Source: Pseudo-nitzschia pungens (lineage: Eukaryota > Bacillariophyta > Bacillariophyceae > Bacillariales > Bacillariaceae). Taken from it: 64,000 bases of DNA. The notes under the pieces were generated by a model, which had not been told where the DNA came from, made no database searches, and saw only the letters and a list, made by a program, of their open reading frames with translations. Location: contig CM074763.1 of assembly GCA_037355855.1 (NCBI GenBank), forward strand, positions 1,860,001-1,924,000, written 5' to 3'. Position numbers and translations under genes: made by a program. Positions within the stretch are counted from its first letter, which is position 1; each line of letters opens with the position of its first letter. Below are positions 59,025-60,366 of this stretch, piece by piece.

Positions 59025-59032
59025 TATATAAT
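59025..59032 (+). promoter_or_regulatory. TATA element upstream of the permuted tRNA
   Basis: TATATAAT lies 36-43 bases before the 3' half. Because the internal A and B boxes are in reversed order in this gene, an upstream TATA is a plausible way to place RNA polymerase III. Confidence 0.5.
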
Positions 59033-59067
59033 TGTAAGAAGTACTCATGGGATCAATCAGTAGATTA

Positions 59068-59144
59068 TCAGAAGATTCCGGGTTCGATTCCCGGGAGGGT
59101 TTCCAGCGACCCTTTGGCCCAACGGTAAGGCGTCTGACTACGAA
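59068..59144 (+). tRNA. Circularly permuted tRNA-Arg(ACG) gene
   Basis: The 3' half comes first (59068-59105): anticodon 3' strand TCAGA, variable loop AGATT, T arm CCGGG-TTCGATT-CCCGG, acceptor 3' strand GAGGGTT, discriminator T and an encoded CCA. After GC, the 5' half follows (59108-59144): acceptor GACCCTT, TG, D arm GCCC-AACGGTA-AGGC, G, anticodon strand TCTGA and loop CTACGAA. Rejoined, the acceptor stem has 7 pairs (two G-U), the anticodon stem 5 of 5, the T stem 5 of 5, and the D stem 3 pairs plus a C13-A22 mismatch that normal eukaryotic tRNA-Arg(ACG) also has. The anticodon ACG reads CGU as inosine. The B box (GGTTCGATTCC) precedes the A box (TGGCCCAACGG). Maturation would need excision of the two-base link and joining at the anticodon loop, as in other permuted tRNAs. 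Confidence 0.9.
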
Positions 59145-59149
59145 TACAC

Positions 59150-59153
59150 TTTT
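59150..59153 (+). terminator. TTTT after the permuted tRNA
   Basis: A T4 run five bases beyond the 5' half, the usual RNA polymerase III stop signal. Confidence 0.5.
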
Positions 59154-60366
59154 GGTCCACAAGTTGTCCGTGACGCTTATCACTTTTTGGATTACAACGT
59201 TGTATTGTCCGATGTACTGTAGGTTACGAGTGATCATGTCACCTTAAGGTTACTCGAAATAGATTGCCGAACAAAAAATAAAACTGTAATAAAGCAATAG
59301 TAACAATGATACTAGTTACTGCTGTATGATTCGACCTTCCCAAATTGGGCGTGAAAAGTGCATCCGACAGGGCAATGAACCTGTGCGGGAACGTTCAGGA
59401 CATCTTAAGTGCCCCCCCCTTAGACCACTCGGGAACAGATGCCATTTTGATCCTGATGGTCAATTGACCACTATTATACAATAAGATAGTTGTCTTCCGT
59501 ATTTTTACTGTTTTATGGAAAAAATGTCTTTGATGCTTGCTACTAGTACTACTACTACTACTAGTACTACAGTCAAGAAGTACACGGACATCATGTTACG
59601 TGTAATGAATCTCGATCATTACAATGGTGCGGCACTCTCCTCGAATCCCTTACAGGAAATTTAGACTGTTTGACCACCATCAAGGATTGTGTATCACCAT
59701 GTTTTTTGAAACTGTTCTTTTACGTTTTGCTGCAAGAAGTTCTTATGTTTTGCTGCTGTCCGTACCGTAGTGCTACAAAGCGTTCTTTAAAAAAAAACAT
59801 ATCTACCGTAATTACCGGTAACTTACGGTAACTTACTTGGTACGAAGGGTACGAAGTATTACAGGAGAAGCGTTTCGGGTCCGGTCACGAGTTACGACCT
59901 GGTCGGTACGTCAGTCAACGGTAAGACCTCAGTTCTAGCATGAATGCAACATCACAACATCACAACATCATCATCGACCATTTTTTCCCTTCTGCGTTCG
60001 GCACATCCAACTTCTTTCGGATTGCCGAGTGCTGAATCCTAAAAAATACGAAGTAATAAGAGATGATTCTTTCATTGAGTGTTCACTGTTCACCTCCGTT
60101 TCTTGTTCAGTGTTCTTTACCCTCATCTTTCCACACCGTATCGTTAACAACCTCATCTTCCGTGGAGTCGAAGAGATCAAAGCAAACGTGTTCGCTAGTA
60201 TCACAGTCGTATCGTACGGGTTCTTGTGCAGTTTGCATACGATTTCTCCGGTGCTAAATCCTCTGAGAGAGAGGTTATGATGCTGACAACTGGCTGCACA
60301 ACATTTTGCGATCTCAACGCGATAACAACGGCTCCATCTCTCGTTCCTCTAGAAGAGACAACCGAA

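Follow-up and report, generated by a model that had tools for sequence, protein, structure and literature searches.

An eight-copy family of circularly permuted tRNA-Arg(ACG) genes in a diatom nuclear genome

A tRNA-Arg(ACG) gene with inverted halves

The window analyzed here is a stretch of 64,000 nucleotides from Pseudo-nitzschia pungens. At 59067-59143 on its forward strand lies a tRNA-Arg(ACG) gene in which the 3' half (tRNA positions 38-73) comes first, followed by a 5-nt linker and then by the 5' half (positions 1-37). Table 1 collects the features of the locus. The 3' half begins with A38 at 59067; the A at 59144, after position 37, is assigned to the flank because sibling copies of the gene vary there. 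A sequence-only reading of the window had already recognized that the 3' half lies upstream of the 5' half, and this is borne out both by the sequence and by ARAGORN, which calls the tRNA only once it is rejoined or doubled. That reading located the gene correctly and misplaced its ends, given as 59068-59144, by one base. It also noticed a single copy, where a search of the genome now gives eight.

Table 1. Features of the permuted tRNA-Arg(ACG) locus, in window coordinates
Feature	Position	Strand	Remarks
TATA box TATATAA, predicted external pol III promoter	59025..59031	+	-42 from 3' half
GTAG in leader	59060..59063	+	-7 to -4; can pair with C32-U33-A34-C35 in an anticodon-intron type helix
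3' half of tRNA-Arg(ACG), positions 38-73	59067..59102	+	includes B box, 59081-59091
Linker CCAGC, intervening	59103..59107	+	length 5 nt in 8/8 copies; mean pairwise identity 0.31
5' half of tRNA-Arg(ACG), positions 1-37	59108..59143	+	A-box region 59115-59125; anticodon ACG 59140-59142
TTTT, predicted pol III terminator	59150..59153	+	a run of at least four T begins within 4-11 nt in 7/8 copies

ARAGORN calls tRNA-Arg(ACG) in all eight copies when they are doubled, in all eight when they are rejoined, and in none in native order. On the native window its sole call is a tRNA-Leu(TAA), and Rfam at its gathering score finds no match in the window. That both programs miss the permuted copy is expected, since its halves are inverted. 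Searched with a tolerance of up to 3 mismatches, a pattern for the permuted junction has one match in the window and none in 100 shuffles. The rejoined 72-mer has the cloverleaf as its best predicted fold, at an unremarkable energy (equally stable folds arise in 51 of 200 shuffles). Eukaryotic tRNA-Arg mostly carries G or A at position 73; here the G1-U72 pair and U73 are invariant across the eight copies (window 59108 and 59102), a point against a functional tRNA. The last linker base before G1 (59107) is a pyrimidine in every copy, six times C and twice T, which perhaps reflects a processing preference although linker sequence is otherwise free.

The sequence-only reading also took a CCA to be encoded at the end of the 3' half, leaving only GC before the acceptor stem. 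This part did not survive: the whole of CCAGC is linker, and its sequence differs in each copy. CCA follows U73 in just one of the eight linkers, so that its occurrence in the window copy is ascribed to chance and an encoded CCA is ruled out by the other seven. Eukaryotic tRNA genes do not encode CCA, according to the account in a 2014 review (PMC3978253). The locus thus has inverted halves in one place, a cloverleaf on rejoining, a junction at 37/38 and an unencoded CCA, all features of eukaryotic permuted tRNA genes of type II. It also has the layout of a single transcription unit, with a TATA box upstream, a T-run only past the 5' half, and no TTTT inside the core of any copy. A split, trans-spliced tRNA gene was considered and rejected, as the halves are only 5 nt apart and no T-run separates them.

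The tRNA-Leu(TAA) that ARAGORN reports lies at 59358-59442 on the reverse strand, 214 nt from the permuted gene. It has its own TATA at -36 and a terminal T-run, together with an unusual T loop (TTCATTG) and a D arm rich in G, and may be either a divergent gene or a decayed one.

Eight copies in unrelated surroundings

The genome searched comprises 66.9 Mb in 28 contigs. In it, the silicon transporter family is matched eleven times, with a top score of 775 bits; one match, at C6:1842004-1843590, lies some 16 kb ahead of the window. The plastid psaA is closest to 8XLS, from photosystem I of the diatom Thalassiosira pseudonana, with 6LY5 from the diatom Chaetoceros gracilis in fourth place and the best four standing about 100 bits above the rest. 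The silicon transporters and psaA together identify the genome as a diatom's. A separate curiosity is a 1696-codon open frame at C3:7803825-7808126: it contains four consecutive silicon-transporter matches and resembles a multi-domain transporter formed by fusion.

A DNA search of this genome finds the tRNA at eight places, on contigs C5 (two), C6, C7, C9, C10 (two) and C12, and all eight are permuted. With the rejoined tRNA as query (E<=10), the 16 half matches are confined to the same eight places, and no match anywhere in the genome spans the 37/38 junction. Conservation ends at position 37 and resumes at 38 in each copy, and the gap between the halves is 5 nt in each. The linkers that fill it are CCAGC, CATTC, AGACT, ATTAC, GTGAC, AATAC, CACAC and AGTGT. 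In the exons just 3 of 576 nt differ across the family (position 60 of the 77-nt core in copies L005 and L007, and position 12 in L008). Averaged over pairs of copies, each half has an identity of 0.99; the linker reaches 0.31, the upstream flank (-60 to -8) 0.28 and the downstream flank 0.31, so that linker and flank identity among copies is about at chance level. Over about 1.5 kb on either side, the flanks have no sequence in common in register, and such cross-matches as they have are short and out of register. Conserved exons in unrelated flanks mean that the copies are not recent segmental duplicates, and segmental duplication as their source is unsupported by the flank cross-matches. Judged from these alignments, selection appears to hold the exons and the length of the linker while leaving its sequence free.

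The same genome was searched for permuted genes of other tRNAs. A generic permuted-tRNA model, applied to the window and 21 loci, gives no further strong case; its weaker matches fall on ordinary tRNA genes, often ones that stand as close pairs, and it finds nothing in 30 further loci (91 kb). For model R1, the rotated Asp, Gln, Glu and plastid Gly sequences (4-nt variable loop) were dropped, and plastid His was excluded from both alignments. Exact permuted-junction patterns give zero matches in viral contigs and prokaryote genomes, as expected for a nuclear gene.

Ordinary nuclear tRNA genes in this genome are often only 9-26 nt apart on one strand (L005, L006, L039, L078-L081, L084, L087 and L088), in groups such as Phe-Glu, Lys-Leu, Ala-Met-Leu, Arg-Asp-Thr and Ser-Pro. 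The T-run mostly comes only after the last gene of a group, which, with the close spacing, suggests joint precursors. Clustering of this kind suggests a route to permutation by way of tandem duplication.

Transcription, splicing and supply

Inversion of the halves puts the A and B boxes in reversed order, and for that reason we predict that the TATA box acts as the promoter. TATA[AT] starts between -34 and -44 in seven of the eight copies; in L007 it is found at -83 and -81. The chance of this motif in an 11-nt span is 0.008 against the window background, giving a binomial value of 2e-14 for 7/8. A T-run of at least four begins 4-11 nt past the 5' half in seven copies and at 29 in L005 (binomial value 1.6e-8 for 7/8, window background). 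Ordinary tRNA genes give a different picture: a TATA at -50 to -20 precedes 7/8 permuted genes versus 3/20 ordinary unit starts (Fisher p=0.0007), in a sample of ordinary genes that is not random, since it was gathered by earlier searches and includes seven Arg(TCG) copies. That sample consists of 34 ARAGORN rows, of which 20 are the first of a unit; a tRNA-Thr cgt row of the window, called in intron mode, was dropped as likely false. The B-block family of TFIIIC has no match in the genome with 4/14 controls positive, a weak test given a short family and an intron-blind search.

The GTAG of the leader is a candidate splicing element. It occurs at -7 to -4 in six of the eight copies (background 0.3%) and is absent from L003 and L007. 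In the six copies that have it, a GTAG:CUAC helix would gain 2.8-3.0 kcal/mol, and the helix is part of the predicted best fold in L001, L002, L004, L006 and L008 and not in L003, L005 or L007. It would leave a 4-nt bulge before the anticodon stem; because classical bulge-helix-bulge motifs have bulges of 3 nt (PMC4090602, in its section 3), we describe the motif as relaxed and as unproven. When its trailer is lengthened, the window copy favors an alternative fold, which 89 of 200 shuffles equal, and by fold energy the precursor is indistinguishable from shuffles.

Machinery for processing is partly visible. The genome has one catalytic splicing-endonuclease domain, at C2:1561023-1561238 and above the Pfam cut-off, in which a Tyr, a His and a Lys, which we take to be the catalytic residues, align with the same residues of archaeal enzymes. 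About 1.2 kb from copy L005, ARAGORN predicts a tRNA-Phe(GAA) interrupted by an 11-nt intron, which fits an ordinary use of the splicing pathway. No match to the RtcB ligase is found in the genome (control positive in 9/14), and the ligase profiles PF09511 and PF08303 match nowhere, controls included, and so are uninformative on the ligase.

Whether the permuted genes are the only source of this tRNA depends on normal-order genes. A pattern for such a gene with A37 matches 71 times versus 41 for its control, an excess due partly to one repeated sequence. Of these spots, 70 were read (all except C11:1347419), and they include one tRNA-Arg(ACG), of plastid type, at L112 in a plastid-like stretch of C7. 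The check for a normal gene proposed in the sequence-only reading therefore yields no nuclear one among the spots read. A G37 pattern (TACGG) matches 54 times versus 44 for its control; these are counts only, outside the spots read. The RF00005 search of the genome scored 63 of 4671 candidates and hence is no census. On this sequence evidence a normal-order nuclear tRNA-Arg(ACG) gene is unlikely to be present, and CGU and CGC probably have no other cytosolic tRNA than the permuted set. Ordinary tRNA-Arg(TCG) genes are present (L080-L086), and by the wobble rules their product does not read CGU or CGC. Demand for tRNA-Arg(ACG) is real, given that CGT and CGC make up 126 of the 401 Arg codons in nine window ORFs. 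As no normal-order nuclear copy was found, these cells likely must cut and rejoin RNA by way of a circle to read common Arg codons.

Parts of C7 (4.80-5.22 Mb) and C5 (5.86-5.98 Mb) carry many repeated organelle-type tRNA copies, and the 50 kb at C7:4870000-4919999 are plastid DNA with a second psaB start inside. It looks as if the plastid genome had been concatenated onto nuclear contigs, by misassembly or by insertion.

Alternative readings and known permuted genes

The reading we hold with high confidence is that of a functional permuted tRNA-Arg(ACG) family, whose transcripts are predicted to pass through a circular RNA on the way to mature tRNA, following the route known from red and green algae. 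That the family functions is very likely, judging from the loci themselves, and the case is strengthened by exons conserved against their flanks, by the TATA box, T-run and GTAG, and by the failure of the spots read to yield a normal nuclear gene. Each locus would be transcribed from its TATA box as the predicted promoter, the precursor would be made into a circle, and the linker would then be removed from this intermediate; A34 would be edited to inosine, and the charged tRNA would decode CGU and CGC. The circular route has been demonstrated in red and green algae, with the circular intermediate detected by RT-PCR, as section 6 of the review reports (PMC3978253). This precedent also makes it improbable that the tRNA is made without a circle, by RNase P and tRNase Z cutting out the linker first and the base-paired halves then being spliced and joined in the manner of split tRNAs, or else kept as fragments. 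Such a route would draw on the acceptor hairpin, whose 6-nt loop (U73 plus the linker) could be cleaved early; the sequence does not fix the order of the steps.

Two further explanations deny the loci a function or their integrity. Eight scattered copies with unrelated flanks could have spread by way of RNA, as a dispersed, functionless repeat retroposed from a tRNA precursor that was circular or permuted. We give this little credence: the exons have accumulated 3 differences over 576 nt, while the linkers now resemble one another about as much as chance would give, most copies are accompanied by TATA, T-run and GTAG, and the rejoined query finds no parent gene in normal order. Least credible is a remnant of ordinary tandem tRNA genes, of partial copies or of an assembly error, which is worth raising in a genome where ordinary tRNA genes often sit so close together and where tandem pairs give the permuted model weaker matches, up to 49.8 bits at plastid trnI/trnA. 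The eight copies score 67.7-73.5 bits (though the model contains this tRNA), and the model was silent in the 30 further loci. Identical borders and a 5-nt gap recur at eight unrelated places, and the outer halves that a tandem array should have left are absent from all of them. The sequence-only reading had named separate partial copies in tandem as the finding that would overturn it; across the genome, the rejoined query returns a single 3' half and a single 5' half at each locus, and a tandem or partial ordinary array is rejected within the limits of this assembly. Its central claim, that a diatom-like nuclear genome carries a tRNA-Arg(ACG) gene in circularly permuted form, is supported by the sequence of eight loci.

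Returning to the functional permuted family, a stronger version of it would have all cytosolic tRNA-Arg for CGU and CGC come from the eight permuted genes, a TATA box in place of the inverted internal promoter, and a spread of the copies by RNA copying instead of by duplication of chromosome segments; we rate the chances of this version as even. Because the family would then be the whole cytosolic supply, translation would depend on circular RNA at every copy. Should the family indeed be the sole cytosolic tRNA-Arg(ACG), the cell would rely on a circular intermediate for an essential tRNA, and the origin and spread of the permuted family could be tested in other diatoms. Eight copies with unrelated flanks also amount to a natural experiment, separating what is kept (exons, linker length, TATA, T-run and, mostly, GTAG) from the parts that are free. 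There is a practical side as well: an ordinary tRNA finder reports the ACG anticodon as missing here.

The 2014 review puts the number of permuted tRNA genes at 34, drawn from six unicellular algae and an archaeon (PMC3978253), to which the later literature, as far as our search covered it, adds another nucleomorph and a further green alga. In that review's account, the type II genes of Cyanidioschyzon merolae, Ostreococcus and Micromonas likewise have inverted halves, a junction at 37/38, an unencoded CCA and no promoter or terminator between the halves, and C. merolae shares with our loci a TATA-like sequence upstream and a T-stretch downstream (PMC3978253). These three are red or green algae whereas the present host is a diatom; the review's table lacks Arg(ACG) and has single permuted genes except for two for Gly(CCC), as against eight copies here; and in C. 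merolae the TATA-like sequence precedes permuted and ordinary genes alike, while here it is common in the permuted genes and rare in the ordinary ones sampled (PMC3978253). Chlorarachniophyte nucleomorphs (Bigelowiella natans, Amorphochlora) are described with the same type II junction, and both permuted genes reported for B. natans have a 5-nt intervening sequence, as here; unlike ours, the nucleomorph genes are of green-algal origin, encode tRNA-Ser and number one per anticodon. In Auxenochlorella, a green alga and not a diatom, permuted tRNAs came to light, by the published account, when an ordinary search gave an incomplete set (PMC12633428). The archaeon Thermofilum pendens is described as having inverted halves and, as here, a unique anticodon without a normal gene; unlike here, its junction lies at 59/60 in the T loop, CCA is encoded and the genes are single copies.

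The sequence-only reading knew of no report from diatoms, and among the papers listed by our literature search there is likewise none that reports permuted tRNA genes for diatoms or for any other stramenopile. The diatom case extends permuted tRNA genes into the stramenopiles. The kind of gene is already known from the systems above; against the literature searched, the diatom lineage, the Arg(ACG) identity, the copy number, the promoter contrast with ordinary genes and the apparent sole supply look new.
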